From Halomonas alkaliantarctica (GTDB taxonomy: Bacteria; Pseudomonadota; Gammaproteobacteria; Pseudomonadales; Halomonadaceae): DNA of 64,000 nt. The notes beneath the pieces were generated by a model. That model was given only the letters and a program-made list of their open reading frames with translations, did no database searches and was not told where the DNA came from. The position numbers and the translations under genes are program-made. The stretch is from positions 2,046,001-2,110,000 of the forward strand of contig NZ_CP122961.1 of NCBI RefSeq assembly GCF_029854215.1, read 5' to 3'. Within the stretch, counting starts at the first letter, position 1. The number at the start of each line of letters is the position of its first letter. Shown here piece after piece: positions 3,532-25,125 of this stretch.

Positions 3532-5385
3532 ATGGGAAGACAACGGCGATGGACATTAGCCACAAAGCGCACCTTTACTGTTGTGCTACCGCTGTTATGC
3601 GTATCACCTGGCGCATGGGCATTAGAAGCGACTATTGAGGGTGTTTCCAATGAGGTCGAAGGCAATATTCAAGCCTATTTACAGAATATCGATGCGGCAC
3701 AATATACCGAGGTGCGTCTAGAGGGCGAGATTCTCCGACGCACCGAGGAAGCAATGCGTGTTTATGGCTATTACGAACCCGAAATAACGCTTGAACGCGC
3801 CACTGATGAACGTGCCTGGATTGAAATCGAGCCCGGGCCTCAGGTTGAAATCGAAATTCTGTCAATCAATGTGGAAGGTGATGCGAGTGAAGATCCGCCT
3901 TTCCAACAGGCTGTTGAGGACTTTCCCCTTGCAGAGGGAGATGTGTTACGGCATGCGCCCTGGGATCGATTAAGCAGCCAATTTTCAGGATTGGCTATTG
4001 AGCGCGGTTACTTTGACTGGGGCTTTACTGATCGGCGCATGGAAGTGCGTCCGTACCTACAAAGTGCGCGTCTCTATATGGATTTTGATAGTGGCCCCCG
4101 CTACCAATTTGGTGAATCCTCTATTACAGGGAGCCATATTGAGCTTGATCGGTTGCGTCGCATGCAACCCTTTGAGCAGGGCGACCCCTATTTGGCAAAG
4201 ACCCTGGCAGACTACAATCAATCGCTTGCTGAAACCGGCTGGTTTAGCTCGGTGTCGGTGCGCCCGCGACTCGAAACAGCTCAAGAATTAACCATCGCTC
4301 CCTCTGGCGGTGGGGATCCTTGGTGGAGTGAAGCCACCGCCTCTCAGCCAGAGCGCCCACGAATCACCAGTGCCGCTTTGGTCAGCGCGCTTGGCCTTAA
4401 TACCCCCAGTGATAAACAGCTACCTATCGATGTCACTGTTGAACCCGCTGATCGCCACCAGTTTGAAGTGGGAGTGGGCTATGCCACCGATGTAGGGCCG
4501 CGGCTGCGTTTCGGCTGGGAACAGCCATGGATTAATCGCTATGGTCATAGCCTTAATCATGACCTCTATTTATCCGCGCCAGAGCAGCGTTTTACCGGCG
4601 TATATAATGTGCCGCTTGAGGATCCGCTTCGCGATAGCTATCGGCTTCAATATGGCATCCGTAATATCGACGATAGTGATACCCAGTCGCTAGAAGGTAC
4701 CGTAGAGCTTGCCCGGCGATGGGAGTTTGATAACGATTGGGTCCAAACGGTCTATTTCCGCACTACTTATGAGGACTTCGAACAGGGCGGTGAAGCGGAT
4801 CAAGTGTGGCTCTTCTATCCAGGTATCCAGTGGTCGCGTACGCGGACACGCCCTCAGCGCTTTCCATTATGGGGTGATCGTCAGCAGCTCTCGTTAGAGT
4901 ATTCCGATACCGTTTGGGGCTCAGATGCAACATTCGCCCGCATCACGGGGGATACGGAGTGGATCCGTATGATCGGCAACGACAACCGCTTCTTGGCGCG
5001 TATTAGTTTAGGCGCCATTGAAACCGATGACTTTGCCAAAATACCGCCATCGCTGCGTTTTTTCGCGGGTGGTGACCGCAGCGTGCGTGGTTACTCCTAT
5101 GAGAGCTTATCTCCCCGCAACGAAGAGGGACGGCTACGCGGTGGGCAGCAAATGCTCACCTCGACCCTGGAGTATCAGCGTCGAGTAACAGGGGATTGGT
5201 GGGGCGCCATCTTTATAGATAACGGCGATGCGTTTGATAATTGGGGGCCTAATGATTTGAAAACCGGCGCCGGAGCCGGGGTACGGTGGGTCTCGCCGGT
5301 AGGGCCTATTCGTTTTGACATCGCCCACCCTTTTGACCACGAAGACGATTGGCGTTTGCACTTTTCCATCGGACCGGAATTCTAG
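3532..5385 (+). CDS. tamA: Translocation and assembly module subunit TamA
   Basis: Outer-membrane Omp85-family protein that with TamB links inner and outer membranes, in autotransporter assembly and probably phospholipid transport. The 617-residue product starts with a signal peptide ending PGAWA|LE near residue 30, then POTRA-like repeats (about 31-250) and a C-terminal 16-strand-type barrel. The Omp85 signature FFAGGDRSVRGYSYESLSP lies near residue 510, and the protein ends with an aromatic residue (Phe), as expected for an outer-membrane barrel. The stop codon overlaps the Shine-Dalgarno sequence of tamB, so the two are coupled. Confidence 0.92.
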   Translation: MGRQRRWTLATKRTFTVVLPLLCVSPGAWALEATIEGVSNEVEGNIQAYLQNIDAAQYTEVRLEGEILRRTEEAMRVYGYYEPEITLERATDERAWIEIEPGPQVEIEILSINVEGDASEDPPFQQAVEDFPLAEGDVLRHAPWDRLSSQFSGLAIERGYFDWGFTDRRMEVRPYLQSARLYMDFDSGPRYQFGESSITGSHIELDRLRRMQPFEQGDPYLAKTLADYNQSLAETGWFSSVSVRPRLETAQELTIAPSGGGDPWWSEATASQPERPRITSAALVSALGLNTPSDKQLPIDVTVEPADRHQFEVGVGYATDVGPRLRFGWEQPWINRYGHSLNHDLYLSAPEQRFTGVYNVPLEDPLRDSYRLQYGIRNIDDSDTQSLEGTVELARRWEFDNDWVQTVYFRTTYEDFEQGGEADQVWLFYPGIQWSRTRTRPQRFPLWGDRQQLSLEYSDTVWGSDATFARITGDTEWIRMIGNDNRFLARISLGAIETDDFAKIPPSLRFFAGGDRSVRGYSYESLSPRNEEGRLRGGQQMLTSTLEYQRRVTGDWWGAIFIDNGDAFDNWGPNDLKTGAGAGVRWVSPVGPIRFDIAHPFDHEDDWRLHFSIGPEF

Positions 5386-16278: not shown

Positions 16279-16515
16279 GGGTCATTTCCTATATGAAAAC
16301 GGATATCGGTACAATTGTGGTAAAATATTCTAATAGCATAGAACACCCCAGAGGCTATGACTACTGGCATTGCCCGGGTTCGCTTAATATATATTATGTT
16401 AAATCAAGTAAACTAAGCGTCTGTAAATAGGTGTCCAAAAGCTGTGATGCCGTTGGACACTAGTCTCCCATCTCCTTATCATTCCCCCACCTATTGTCCA
16501 AGGATATCTCTTGAT

Positions 16516-21244: not shown

Positions 21245-21661
21245 CTACTTCTGCTGCGCTACCGCGTAGATCTTCTCCAGCATGGCGTGCAGGCCGTTGC
21301 TACGTGTGGGGGACAAGTGCTTGTCTAACCCTAAATCAGTCATAAAGTGCGGTTCGGTAGCTCGTATTTCAGCGGCTGTGCGTTCGCTATAAATACGCAG
21401 CAAGACGGCAATTAGGCCGGATACGATGGCTGCATCGGAGGTTGCTTTAAAAACCAGCTTATCGCCCTCCTCTTCATGGCGCATCCACACATTTGACTGA
21501 CAGCCCTGAATTTTAAACTCCTCGATCTTCCATTCTTCGGGAAAGTCGGGCAGTTGATTACCCATATCGATAATGTACTGGTAACGATCCATCCAGTTAT
21601 CAAATATCTCGAAATCTTCGATTAGCTCTTGCTGGGCCTGCTCGGCGCCGGAAGTGCTCAT
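21245..21661 (-). CDS. sufE: SufE family cysteine desulfuration protein
   Basis: Sulfur acceptor that takes persulfide sulfur from a SufS/CsdA cysteine desulfurase for Fe-S cluster assembly. The 138-residue product shows the family core: DNWMDRYQYIIDMGNQLPDF near residue 21 and the active-site FKIQGCQSNVWM (acceptor Cys near residue 54). AAGGAAAT precedes the ATG. It is convergent with yidD, and the recombinase gene lies upstream on the same strand. NfuA, another Fe-S protein, is 2.5 kb away. Confidence 0.9.
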   Translation of the reverse strand: MSTSGAEQAQQELIEDFEIFDNWMDRYQYIIDMGNQLPDFPEEWKIEEFKIQGCQSNVWMRHEEEGDKLVFKATSDAAIVSGLIAVLLRIYSERTAAEIRATEPHFMTDLGLDKHLSPTRSNGLHAMLEKIYAVAQQK

Positions 21662-21713: not shown

Positions 21714-22892
21714 TTACGTATCTTCCCTATTATAACGGTTCAAAGGCGGCTTGAGGGGTGTTGTATCTGAAATCGCCAATCGATGACGCTGCTGCTCGCG
21801 ATGCCACTCGTTGTCTTCGGTGTGAAGATAACGTGAGGTGGTATCAAGCCGCGCGTGACGGGCGCTTTCGGCCAGATGGCGCAAGCTAATGCCCGATTGA
21901 GCTTGGTGGGTAATCGATGTATGCCTTAACCAGTGCGGCGTTGCCTGGTTAAGTGCGGCAATATGTTCAGGTGTGCCGCCCTTATTTTCAAGTGCTTGCG
22001 CAGCCTTATGAAATGTAGTCCGAATAAGCCGATAAAGCTGGTTATGCCCCAGGCCGCGCTGGCCATCCAGGGCGCGCAGCAACGGTGTCTCTGCGTCCAG
22101 CTGGCTGGGAATGTCAGACAGGCCCAGTGCTTGGCGCCACTGCTGCAGGCAGTTCAGCATATCCTCGGGCAGCGGAATTCTTGCCATTTTGCTGCCCTTG
22201 CCCACCACATGCCACCACCAGCGCCCTTCGCTGCGCTGGAAATCGCCCATACGCGCATCCGCCATCTCGCTAATACGTGGCGCAAGCAGATAGGCAAAGC
22301 CAAAGATAAAGCGTCGCCGGGCATGCTCAAAATGAGCGCGATTGCCCTCCCCAGCCTCTAGCGGTCTATTCAACCACTTCCACAGCCATGCCCATAGATC
22401 GCCCTCAAGATAGCGTTCAATTCGCGGCGTTTGATTATTCAGGCGGCGGGATTTATCGCGCATTAAGCGAAACGGATTGTGGTTAACCCACCCCGCTTCT
22501 ACCAGCCACGCGAACAGGCCTTGCAGTATTACCAAGCTTTGACGCCGGCTGGCGGGCGATAATACGCCGCGAAATGGCCGCCACGCCGGGTGCGTGCGGG
22601 GCTTGGAGGGCCCCACCCACTGCCCGCTAGGCTGTGGATCAGCAAGAAAGGCTTCAAAGCGGCGCAGCGTTTCGCGATTTATATCGGCAAGCGTGAGGCC
22701 TTGGCTAGCCAGCCAGAGCAGAAGCCGCTCCGCCTCTCGACGGTACGCTTTCCAGGTTTGCGGGCTGTCCACGTACTCATCCAACCATGCGGATACTGCC
22801 TGGGCATCGTTTTGGGCGCTAATACGCCCACCATTGGGCGTCTCTTTTAGCGTCAATAGTTGGCTAGTGGGTGTAATAACGTCATTCGCCAT
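21714..22892 (-). CDS. Tyrosine site-specific recombinase (XerC/D-like integrase)
   Basis: The 392-residue DNA recombinase has an N-terminal SAM-like core-binding domain (about 27-135) and a C-terminal catalytic domain with all expected residues: Arg206 in LAPRISEM, Lys235 in GKGSK, HWLRH (His320 and Arg323), His346 in ESARHARL and Tyr355 in TTSRYLH. It is therefore likely active. No phage or transposon genes lie near; instead it is divergent from a KfrA-like DNA-binding gene across a spacer with two inverted repeats. It is too different from XerC or XerD to be called either. The target site is unknown. Confidence 0.85.
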   Translation of the reverse strand: MANDVITPTSQLLTLKETPNGGRISAQNDAQAVSAWLDEYVDSPQTWKAYRREAERLLLWLASQGLTLADINRETLRRFEAFLADPQPSGQWVGPSKPRTHPAWRPFRGVLSPASRRQSLVILQGLFAWLVEAGWVNHNPFRLMRDKSRRLNNQTPRIERYLEGDLWAWLWKWLNRPLEAGEGNRAHFEHARRRFIFGFAYLLAPRISEMADARMGDFQRSEGRWWWHVVGKGSKMARIPLPEDMLNCLQQWRQALGLSDIPSQLDAETPLLRALDGQRGLGHNQLYRLIRTTFHKAAQALENKGGTPEHIAALNQATPHWLRHTSITHQAQSGISLRHLAESARHARLDTTSRYLHTEDNEWHREQQRHRLAISDTTPLKPPLNRYNREDT

Positions 22893-22958
22893 GCCCGTCG
22901 CTACTCTCTTTTAAAGGCCTTTTATATTCAGTGGTCTGAAGTGTGCCTCTGTAGGCAA

Positions 22959-22994
22959 ATAAATTCAAGATAATAAGGGTAATCTTGAATTTAT
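22959..22994. repeat. Inverted repeat 1 between recombinase and KfrA-like gene
   Basis: Arms ATAAATTCAAGAT (22959-22971) and ATCTTGAATTTAT (22982-22994) are 13-bp perfect complements with a 10-nt spacer, in an AT-rich gap. Arm and spacer sizes resemble tyrosine-recombinase core sites (such as 13 bp arms with 8 bp spacer in loxP) as well as dimeric repressor operators. Confidence 0.75.
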
Positions 22995-23012
22995 ATCTAT
23001 TGCTGTAAATAA

Positions 23013-23038
23013 AATTACGTTTTACATAATACGTAATT
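23013..23038. repeat. Inverted repeat 2 between recombinase and KfrA-like gene
   Basis: Arms AATTACGT (23013-23020) and ACGTAATT (23031-23038) are 8-bp perfect complements, again with a 10-nt spacer. It is 66 bp before the KfrA-like start codon, a likely place for an autoregulatory operator. Confidence 0.65.
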
Positions 23039-23104
23039 ATTGCCTTTTGCCTTATGAAAACCGACAATGGCAGTCACGAAAAGCTCTCAAGGAAGGATCA
23101 TTTC

Positions 23105-24145
23105 ATGGCCCGCAACGGCATTCAGTACAGCGATGTTCAACAAGCCATTGATGCCCTGCTGGCCCGGGGCGACACGCCCAGCGTGCAGCGTATTCGCGAT
23201 GTGCTGGGTACCGGCAGCTTCACGACAATTAGTGACCACTTTCGCTTGTGGCGCAGTGAGCGAGAGCAGAATCGCGATGTGCCGCCGCCTAAAGGGGTGC
23301 CGGAAGTCGTAGTGACAATGGCCAGCGAACTTTGGCGCGAGGCCCAGGAAGTGGCAAATCAAGCGCTGCTCCACTATCGCGAGGATGCCAATCGCCAGGT
23401 TGCCGACGCCCAGCAGCTCGCAGAGGACGCTCAACAGCAGGCCGCTAACGCCGAGCAGCGCGAGAGCGCCCTCGCCGAGCACTTGCGTCATATGGAGCAG
23501 CGCATGGAGGCGTTGAACCGGGAATTGGCCGCTAGCCAAACCAGCGAACATCACTGGCATCAACAAGCCGAAGCGGCGCAGGAGGAAGTTACTCAACTGA
23601 AGCAGGCGCAACAGCAGCTAGAGAACCAGGTAGGCGCGCAGCGCGATGCGCATAGCCAAGCCCTTAACGAGCAGCAGGTAGCGTGGGAGCAGCGGTTAAC
23701 ACAAGAGGAGCAGCGTCATGAGGCAGCTGAAGGAAGGCTGATGGCGATGCTGGATAACGCACAGCAGGCGCGCGCCCAGGAAGAGAAGAGTTACCAAAAA
23801 CGTTTGCAGCAGTCTGAGCAGCGTATTGAGACATTGAGTCAGGAGCTAAAGGCAAAGCAGCAGGCCCTGCATCAACTTCAGTTGGAAGCCAGCGACCGCG
23901 AGCAACAGATTAGCGAGCAAAAGCAGACAATGGCGGCACTGCACAAGCAGGAGAAAGCGCTGACCCAGCAGCTTGACGAGGCCAAAGCCGCGATCACCAG
24001 CCAAGCTCAGCAGCATGCCGAGCGCGAAGCTGCGCTACAGCAAGCGTGGCAAGAGAAGCTTTGGAGCCGTATGGAAGCGCTGCAAAAACAGCTTACGGCA
24101 CTCCCCGACGCGCTATCAAAACAAAGCAGTGAGCCCGGCCAGTAA
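23105..24145 (+). CDS. KfrA-like DNA-binding coiled-coil protein
   Basis: The 346-residue protein starts at the ATG at 23105, which has AAGGAAGGA upstream; an ATG 51 nt earlier lacks a site. The N-terminal part (YSDVQQAIDALLARGDTPSV, then IRDVLGTGSFTTISDHFRLW) matches the KfrA N-terminal helix-turn-helix region found in plasmid KfrA repressors. From about residue 95 to the end it is an uninterrupted Gln/Glu/Ala-rich coiled coil, as in KfrA. KfrA is a plasmid partition or stability factor and autorepressor; a chromosomal copy divergent from a recombinase suggests control of that gene or of DNA architecture. Role inferred. Confidence 0.75.
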   Translation: MARNGIQYSDVQQAIDALLARGDTPSVQRIRDVLGTGSFTTISDHFRLWRSEREQNRDVPPPKGVPEVVVTMASELWREAQEVANQALLHYREDANRQVADAQQLAEDAQQQAANAEQRESALAEHLRHMEQRMEALNRELAASQTSEHHWHQQAEAAQEEVTQLKQAQQQLENQVGAQRDAHSQALNEQQVAWEQRLTQEEQRHEAAEGRLMAMLDNAQQARAQEEKSYQKRLQQSEQRIETLSQELKAKQQALHQLQLEASDREQQISEQKQTMAALHKQEKALTQQLDEAKAAITSQAQQHAEREAALQQAWQEKLWSRMEALQKQLTALPDALSKQSSEPGQ

Positions 24146-24209: not shown

Positions 24210-24833
24210 TTAACGGTAGTAGGCGTTAGTGGTATCACTATGATCAGTAACGTCGCGAATACCGGCAAGCTCCGGAATGCGCTCCATCAGCGTCTTCTCA
24301 ACACCATCTTTAAGCGTTAAATCGACCGCCGCACAGCCCTGACAACCACCGCCAAAGGCGAGGACGGCGTACTGCTGCTCGGTCAGTTCAACCAACTTGA
24401 TTTCCCCACCGTGAGCGGCAAGGCCAGGATTAATCTCACTGTAAAGCACGTAATTGATACGGTCTTCCAGCGGGCTATCCGCATTGACCTTGGGCATCTT
24501 GGCGTTGGGCGCTTTGATGGTTAGCTGACCGCCCATGCGGTCGGCGTTGAAATCCACCACTGCCTCTTCCAAAAAGGCCAAGCTGTTTTTATCGAGAAAA
24601 ACGTTAATTTTCTCGAGCTCCAGCGTGACATCGGTAGGTTCTTCTTCGCCGGGACGGCAGTAAGCCAAGCAAGTTTCCGCGTAGGGTGTGCCCGGCTGAG
24701 TAATAAAAATGCGTACCGCAATACCTTCGACGTTCTGCTTTTCCAGCAGTTCTGCCAAGTATTCTTGCGCACTGGGTGTAATATCAATACCTTGGGTATC
24801 GATTTTAGTATCTACTTCGCTAGTCGTGGTCAT
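24210..24833 (-). CDS. nfuA: Fe/S biogenesis protein NfuA
   Basis: Carrier of [4Fe-4S] clusters to target proteins. From the ATG at 24833 the product is 207 residues; an upstream GTG would add 14 residues unlike the family. The A-type-like N-terminal domain contains [17 protein letters not shown] and [17 protein letters not shown], and the C-terminal Nfu domain carries the cluster CXXC in [25 protein letters not shown] is about 12 bases upstream, rather far. It is convergent with the KfrA-like gene and divergent from metH. Confidence 0.93.
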
Positions 24834-25125
24834 GAGGGCTGTCTTCCTCCCGTGGTAGTGGCGGCGCCACTTCACATGTCATTTGTGTCTATGGTAAGCA
24901 AAACAGCGCGCTGACACAATCCCGACTGTTTTAGTCAGCTATTTTAAACAGCTCTTTTTAAGAGCGACTATTAATTATCATTCCTTATCTTGCGTATAGC
25001 CTACGTAGGGGCGCCTTTTGCCATCCCTTTTGTTATCATTATGCGCCTAATAACGACAGATGCTGCTTTTCCGACGATAACAACATCCCCTTTGACGACT
25101 GTGACGCTGGAGAACTCCCCCTGCC

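Follow-up and report, generated by a model that had tools for sequence, protein, structure and literature searches.

In Tn4651 of plasmid pWW0 the recombinase TnpS and its helper TnpT act at the site rst, which two papers describe as a core palindrome for TnpS plus an accessory one for TnpT (PMC4619425, PMC7157771); the latter paper sees no apparent homology between TnpT and other proteins (PMC7157771), and a TnpS/TnpT system within a transposon is described from Halomonas sp. ZM3 (PMC3606827). The KfrA proteins of plasmids are autorepressors with iterated operators, according to PMC7783346. Among chromosomal systems, the dif arms of XerL are described as long repeats without interruption, and a dif mimic is present on a mobile element (PMC9765430). 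Here we report on a locus within 64,000 nucleotides of the Halomonas alkaliantarctica chromosome (NZ_CP122961.1, positions 2,046,001 to 2,110,000; "the window" throughout), at which a gene for a tyrosine recombinase, given the working name rec, diverges from a gene for a KfrA-like protein, kfrA, across a gap holding two inverted repeats, IR1 and IR2. We propose, with a probability of roughly 60% on the comparisons set out below, that this locus is a domesticated Tn3-family resolution module and serves, alongside dif, as a second system of monomerisation.

The gene pair and its conservation

The first-pass annotation of this DNA had named a tyrosine recombinase divergent from a KfrA-like gene across two palindromes; the open reading frames (ORFs), the Pfam matches and a repeat scan all bear this out (Table 1), and the catalytic residues that it listed for the recombinase (R206, K235, H320, R323, H346 and Y355) are found where it placed them, with K232 as a second Lys candidate. 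The recombinase lies far below the NCBIfam cut-offs for XerC (71 vs 335 bits), XerD (53.8 vs 330) and XerS (18.2 vs 267); its XerD- and XerC-like matches among solved structures are weak, and PADLOC gave no match to it. The KfrA_N domain of its partner lies in an ORF open from 23054, of which 23105 (MARNGIQ..., kept in relatives) is likely to be the true start. That protein also has a coiled-coil tail, with weak SMC-like matches and two PADLOC matches over the coiled-coil part; no solved structure matched it. The module is chromosomal, on a single 4.23-Mb contig, and so lacks the plasmid location of KfrA proteins.

Searching 151 genomes from the window's GTDB family with each protein gave a rec ortholog in 126 and kfrA in 148, with rec never present without kfrA (0/126); 18 of the 22 genomes that have kfrA without an intact rec belong to one genus, g4. 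A small and unsupported tree of three proteins puts the losses of rec, which is a remnant in G091, at some four or five points. The two genes are divergent and within 1 kb in 119 of the 126 genomes (match-to-match gaps of 162-973 bp); of the other seven, G052 has the pair divided by a contig break, and the gap is wider in G051, G105, G018, G037, G016 and G143. The gene order sufE-rec-kfrA-nfuA is common to many genera, with local changes in some; thus the conserved module supposed in the first-pass annotation, which had proposed a search for co-occurrence of genes and palindromes, is indeed a pair kept through the family in a largely syntenic neighbourhood. A FastTree phylogeny of 136 homologues places all 64 sequences from the family in a single clade (support 1.0), whose only member from outside the family is L153, on a short contig of a Pseudomonadaceae metagenome-assembled genome.

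Ratios of non-synonymous to synonymous substitution (dN/dS, by NG86, with several dS values above 1 and near saturation) were 0.08-0.13 in eight rec pairs and 0.06-0.13 in seven kfrA pairs, against 0-0.06 for sufE and nfuA. This indicates that the module evolves faster than its two flanking genes, yet under clear constraint, as expected of purifying selection.

Two palindromes of different kinds

IR1 has 13-bp arms (22959-22971 and 22982-22994) about a 10-nt spacer, and is one of six perfect inverted repeats in the window with arms of at least 11 and a spacer of at most 20. In 2000 base-shuffled intergenic sequences (shuffled by single base, not dinucleotide) an arm of at least 13 never arose, and an arm of at least 8 with exactly a 10-nt spacer arose nine times. 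IR1 is unique in its own genome even when three mismatches are allowed, leaving no partner for inversion, and phase variation, one of the roles first suggested for the locus, has to be given up.

A weight matrix, built from sites of the same locus set that it then scanned, found IR1 in 104 of 105 loci of rec-bearing family genomes (some genomes being included more than once, so that there are 69 distinct IR1 sites); the sole miss, L028, is a contig edge, and the IR1 of that genome lies on another contig, L106. None of the seven loci without intact rec (L092-L096, L102 and L103) has IR1. Similarly, in a scan of 35 mostly complete genomes IR1, with at most one mismatch, was at the module in all 32 with intact rec and absent from the module in the rec-less G101, G137 and G091. 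Two exact matches lay off the module in these 35 genomes: one on a plasmid of Zymobacter palmae (G018 C2), considered below, and one in G079 (L214), which was set aside as probably due to chance, being inside an ORF.

Over the 69 distinct sites, positions 6, 7, 9, 11 and 13 and their partners are invariant, and the centre is variable (0.2-1.2 bits in columns 15-18, with T or G in column 14). The site is not fully symmetrical: A/A stands at 12/21 in 58 of the 69 and G at 19 in every one, which gives IR1 a polarity. Judged from the enzyme family, this would be the anatomy of a tyrosine recombinase core site. Two att copies, as for the integrase of an element, were not found; there is one IR1 in the window's own genome and one per locus in the loci scanned.

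In several genera islands of 3-19 kb lie between IR1 and rec (L087, L088, L089 and L091), and in these IR1 stays 100-210 bp from the kfrA ORF. We liken them to the passengers described between tnpS and tnpT in some transposons; as IR1-mediated insertions they are unsupported in the four that were read (L087, L088, L089 with L090, and L091), each having a single IR1.

IR2 has 8-bp arms and, like IR1, a 10-nt spacer, and the first-pass annotation took the two for twins. Both palindromes are real; the geometry of IR2 is incidental and it is no twin of IR1. In relatives it consists of a series of TTACGTA-like units, TTACGTNNTAYRTANNACGTAA, and is best described as a single 22-bp element. By eye, TTACGTA-type units are kept upstream of kfrA in six of the seven loci without intact rec; in the seventh, L096, an over-extended ORF start put the inspected stretch too far upstream for the units to be read. 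Thus IR1 tracks rec, and IR2, the putative KfrA operator, stays with kfrA after rec is lost. Recombinase core sites and repressor operators had both been offered for the two palindromes together; these patterns suggest that IR1 behaves like the former and IR2 like the latter.

The two elements keep a nearly fixed distance. Among 162 loci scanned, 94 had the strict IR1 expression, representing 78 distinct sites, and with the operator allowed up to five mismatches the start-to-start distance was 50 bp in 61 of these and 49 bp in nine (70/78); family sites make up all but two of the 74 IR1 sites with an operator match. With no more than two mismatches the operator pattern matches a single place in each of 14 out of 19 genomes, in every case the module, and it occurs once in the window; it was unmatched in four rec-bearing genomes and in the rec-less G101, where an operator is seen by eye only, if at all. 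The idea of KfrA as a terminus-wide nucleoid protein finds no support in these counts, each of the 14 matching genomes among the 19 having a single operator match.

IR1-like sites also occur on extrachromosomal replicons. The 5,060-bp Zymobacter palmae plasmid (NZ_AP018934.1) carries an IR1 identical at 24/24 nt to that of its host's chromosome, with different outer arms. When 72,556 plasmids were searched for the common IR1 form, three records matched: Halomonas pIGAnt2 (expectation value, E, 2e-3), a phage-plasmid of Halomonas qaidamensis that has genes for portal, terminase and ParA (E 1), and a plasmid of Piscirickettsia (E 1). Six viral contigs matched in a pattern scan; only L234, which agrees with family sites in all 32 columns, and L232 look like real sites, and the other four were rejected as lacking the extended arms. 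By tblastn neither rec nor KfrA was found on L213, L234, L240 or L241, nor in 11 kb of L232, and the integrase of the qaidamensis phage-plasmid scores 7.4 bits against the rec profile.

Some further features of these replicons may be recorded. The Zymobacter plasmid (L213 1-5060) also encodes Hcp (of the type VI secretion system), a GH19-type enzyme and a RelE-type toxin with a helix-turn-helix partner; the IR1-like palindrome of the qaidamensis phage-plasmid (L240 21627-21658) lies about 0.9 kb from its ParA gene; and in L232, a viral contig with a portal-like frame (by eye), an IR1-like site at 4684-4709 is followed by the KfrA-operator-like TTATATGTATTATGTAATAA.

The dif site and relatives beyond the family

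A XerCD dif site lies 5.3 kb from rec in the window (0 matches in 100 shuffles). The first-pass annotation did not mention it; chromosome maintenance, among the roles it listed, comes close to the reading that we favour. That IR1 might itself be dif was rejected: the sequences differ and both are present. One dif match per genome, with at most two mismatches, was found in 33 of the 35 genomes and a looser pattern supplied the remaining two (G068 and G022, the latter match being the least typical); dif is 2.2-32.7 kb from rec, or from kfrA where rec is missing, in all 35. The module stands 0.43-0.50 genome lengths from dnaA in 34 of them (11 of the genome lengths being rounded); in G023 it stands at 0.20, and dif has moved along with it.

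Outside the main clade, distant rec homologues form a separate clade (25/25 tested, support 0.988), mostly without a KfrA neighbour. We sought dif in two partly overlapping sets of 28 and 48 genomes. Twelve non-family genomes have both a homologue and a clear dif, and in 8 of them the best-scoring homologue is less than 20 kb from dif (G311, G204, G246, G297, G398, G349, G196 and G186). In G414 there are mere fragments close to dif, the best copy being 65 kb off; G280, of the KfrA-paired group, is at 94 kb, G184 at more than 1 Mb, and in G338 the two are on different contigs. No dif was recognised in the remaining genomes, two dif-like matches in G182 being dropped as too divergent.

No recognisable XerCD dif was present in the 20 genomes tested of families f38 and f44. 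Five of their 14 recombinase loci have a palindrome of the type TTCCGATAA...TTATCGGAA (L073 3126, L077 3613, L079 3324, L081 2777 and L086 3894), vs six matches in 1.18 Mb of other loci to a pattern that was written after some of those sites had been seen. These recombinases and palindromes are possibly unrecognised single-recombinase chromosome resolution systems. Altogether these findings suggest, though they do not show, that chromosome resolvases are among the members of the superfamily.

Individual loci add some further arrangements. In L215 to L219 and L221 the distance between a homologous recombinase gene and dif ranges from about 20-40 bp (L215, L216 and L219) to about 3 kb; dif in L221 has a KfrA_N gene on one side and the recombinase on the other, within 4.5 kb, and the recombinase gene of L217 is overlapped by a KfrA_N gene of the same strand. 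In L101 3909-6659 (G368) two pieces of a recombinase homologue stand on either side of a 514-amino-acid reading frame without a Pfam match.

A further 85 loci (L128-L212), 46 of them outside the family, were taken as relatives. A recombinase of the rec type is present in 83; the KfrA_N-like gene upstream of it is divergent in 68, on the same strand in two (L184 and L207) and not detected in 13, some of which are at contig edges, the figures for the 46 non-family loci being 31, two and 13. A Tn3 transposase (TnpA) adjoins the pair in six of the 46 (L128, L137, L141, L149, L152 and L191; Pfam-checked in the first three), and the gap holds a core-like site in five of these, for example TTCAAGATAAGTGGCCTAATCATGAA in L137, with L191 doubtful. 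In G280 and G367, from other families, pair and site stand in unrelated gene neighbourhoods. Among plasmids 1750 records match rec, with about 42% identity or less among the matches listed, bar one short match. The earlier idea of a domesticated plasmid system was close, and the nearest relatives found are Tn3-family resolution modules, not KfrA plasmid partition regions.

Around the window locus the neighbours are housekeeping genes (Fur-like, HisI, YidD, SufE, NfuA, MetH and MatE), and no transposase gene (tnpA) was linked to rec and kfrA among the neighbours examined. Coordinates are collected in Table 1.

Table 1. Positions in the window of the rec/kfrA locus, the nearby dif site and the conserved flanking genes
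Feature	Position	Strand	Evidence
rec (working name), tyrosine recombinase, 392 amino acids	21714..22892	-	PF00589 55.3 bits; catalytic residues; family orthologs
IR1, putative recombinase core site, 13-bp half-sites, variable 6-bp centre, fixed polarity	22959..22994		sequence comparison
IR2, putative KfrA operator/accessory site	23015..23036		50 bp from IR1 TCA start; adjoins kfrA
kfrA, KfrA_N winged helix-turn-helix/coiled-coil protein, 346 amino acids, TnpT-like helper	23105..24145	+	PF11740 90.8 bits
XerCD dif site, CGCTTAATATATATTATGTTAAAT	16381..16404	+	differs at 2 positions from the 24-nt pattern used
sufE, conserved flank downstream of rec	21245..21661	-	PF02657 157 bits; locus layouts
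nfuA, conserved flank downstream of kfrA	24210..24875	-	PF01106 and PF01521; locus layouts

A proposed second monomerisation system, its rivals and its relatives

We propose that the recombinase would bind the two 13-bp half-sites of IR1 and exchange strands across the 6-bp centre, and that the KfrA-like protein would bind IR2, repressing its own promoter and shaping the complex so that recombination favours the resolution of directly repeated sites. As there is a single chromosomal IR1, a chromosome dimer or a pair of sisters would be its only intrachromosomal substrate, and so the likely role in the host is monomerisation, as a second system beside XerCD/dif. Replicons that carry IR1 without the genes could use the recombinase in trans for the resolution of their own multimers, much as the cer site of ColE1 uses XerCD. 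Going further, and only tentatively, at somewhat less than even odds, we suggest that the family may run two independent monomerisation systems a few kb apart at the terminus, that local plasmids and phages may have copied IR1 as others have copied dif, and that sister recombinases with palindromes of their own may possibly be the sole system in related families that lack a recognisable XerCD dif.

Several observations weigh against a resolution module for the chromosome. No recombination product was seen and no element bounded by two IR1 copies was found; the four rec-kfrA islands that were read hold only one IR1 each. About 31 one-mismatch IR1 places lie off the module in the 35 genomes, vs one for a reversed-pattern control; we take these as background because an IR1 pattern one base too short (9 vs 10 nt, GAT-ATC) has 13 exact places in 43 genomes. 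Eight of the 78 distinct sites are off the usual spacing, four at 36, 36, 44 and 56 bp and four with no operator match (L087, L088, L089 and L200). As the family loci are syntenic and share one ancestral position, the 35 genomes with the module near dif represent one event kept, and not 35 independent ones. XerCD dif is also present in the family, so that a second system would be redundant; and kfrA is kept without intact rec in 22 of 148 genomes, so that KfrA must have a job besides helping rec. On the extrachromosomal side, the pIGAnt2 and qaidamensis sites are without the G at column 19 that is invariant in the 69 family sites, pIGAnt2 having one further arm mismatch, and by eye there is no evident KfrA operator about 50 bp from the sites in L213, L234, L240 and L241. 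Lastly, rec is not detectably similar to TnpS of Tn4651 (BLASTP E 0.21), with which it shares only Pfam PF00589.

One rival reading is a recombination system selected for what it does to plasmids and phages, and not to the chromosome, resolving or exploiting resident replicons, with its nearness to dif an accident of descent. Two plasmids and a phage-plasmid of the family, together with one viral contig, have IR1-like sites and no rec, which agrees with this, as does the descent of the family loci from one position beside sufE. We nonetheless consider it unlikely: only four extrachromosomal carriers were found, two of them imperfect, and the placing of separate-clade recombinases within 20 kb of dif in eight of 12 non-family genomes hints that the terminus matters. 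It is still less probable that rec and KfrA merely regulate their own divergent promoters, with IR1 and IR2 as transcriptional operators and no recombination at all. Both palindromes do sit in the promoter gap, and plasmid KfrA proteins are autorepressors with iterated operators (PMC7783346). However, IR1 is lost with rec while kfrA and its operator units stay, its conservation is of the core-site type with a variable centre and fixed polarity, copies of it occur on replicons with neither rec nor kfrA, and the recombinase has kept its catalytic residues.

The persistence of kfrA without rec in 22 genomes, the lack of any genome with the converse, the remnant in G091 and the several places of loss on the small, unsupported tree could also mean that KfrA is the functional element, as a terminus scaffold or regulator, and rec a fading passenger. 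We find this very improbable, since rec is kept in 126 of 151 genomes with dN/dS of 0.08-0.13 in eight pairs (several dS above 1); and the restriction of the operator pattern to its own locus in 14 of the 19 genomes, where it is found, argues against a genome-wide scaffold.

If the domesticated resolution module is the correct reading, a transposon resolvase has been established in a chromosomal role throughout most of a bacterial family and works beside XerCD/dif, which raises the question of why there should be two systems for one chromosome; it would also link plasmid KfrA proteins, the TnpT helpers of transposons and chromosome maintenance. The sites are precise enough for experiment, with a core of 32 bp, an operator of 22 bp and a spacing that hardly varies, and the core-bearing plasmids are suited to tests of action in trans. 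We found no description of such a module in the open-access literature, from which subscription papers are mostly missing, on dimer or multimer resolution in Halomonas or on KfrA with a recombinase or TnpT.

Compared with known chromosomal systems, the locus resembles XerCD/dif, XerS, XerH and XerL in pairing a tyrosine recombinase with a palindromic site of about 30 bp near the terminus. It differs from XerCD/dif and the single-recombinase Xer systems in that IR1 is unrelated to dif and coexists with it, and in that rec has a KfrA partner; no entry named XerL was among the best 120 of the 674 matches listed. The KfrA proteins of IncP and IncU plasmids are alike in the KfrA_N domain, the coiled-coil tail and the iterated operator beside their own promoter; the window protein differs in being chromosomal and paired with a recombinase, and its operator unit is TTACGTA vs the 9-bp TGTATTGTA of RA3.

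Nearer still are the Tn3-family elements described above (on the Halioglobus plasmid pRR3-57, L128, and in L137, L141, L149, L152 and L191), which have a homologous recombinase with a divergent KfrA_N-like gene, and which, unlike the family locus, are mobile with TnpA adjoining; a recombinase annotated as TnpR of Tn4401 has 33% identity over 89% of the rec query among the plasmid matches listed. Tn4651 has the same divergent layout of recombinase and helper, with core and accessory palindromes between the genes, and passengers can sit between them there as well. The pWW0 genes are presumably tnpS and tnpT, named here from the layout given in the literature, and the protein at the place of TnpT has a KfrA_N match of 93 bits and 35% identity to the window KfrA over 127 amino acids (E 1e-13). 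The window locus differs from Tn4651 in having no transposase and in being a vertically inherited chromosomal gene near dif. We do not file the recombinase as a TnpS, and suggest that the module may work like TnpS/TnpT/rst, with which it shares its helper family.

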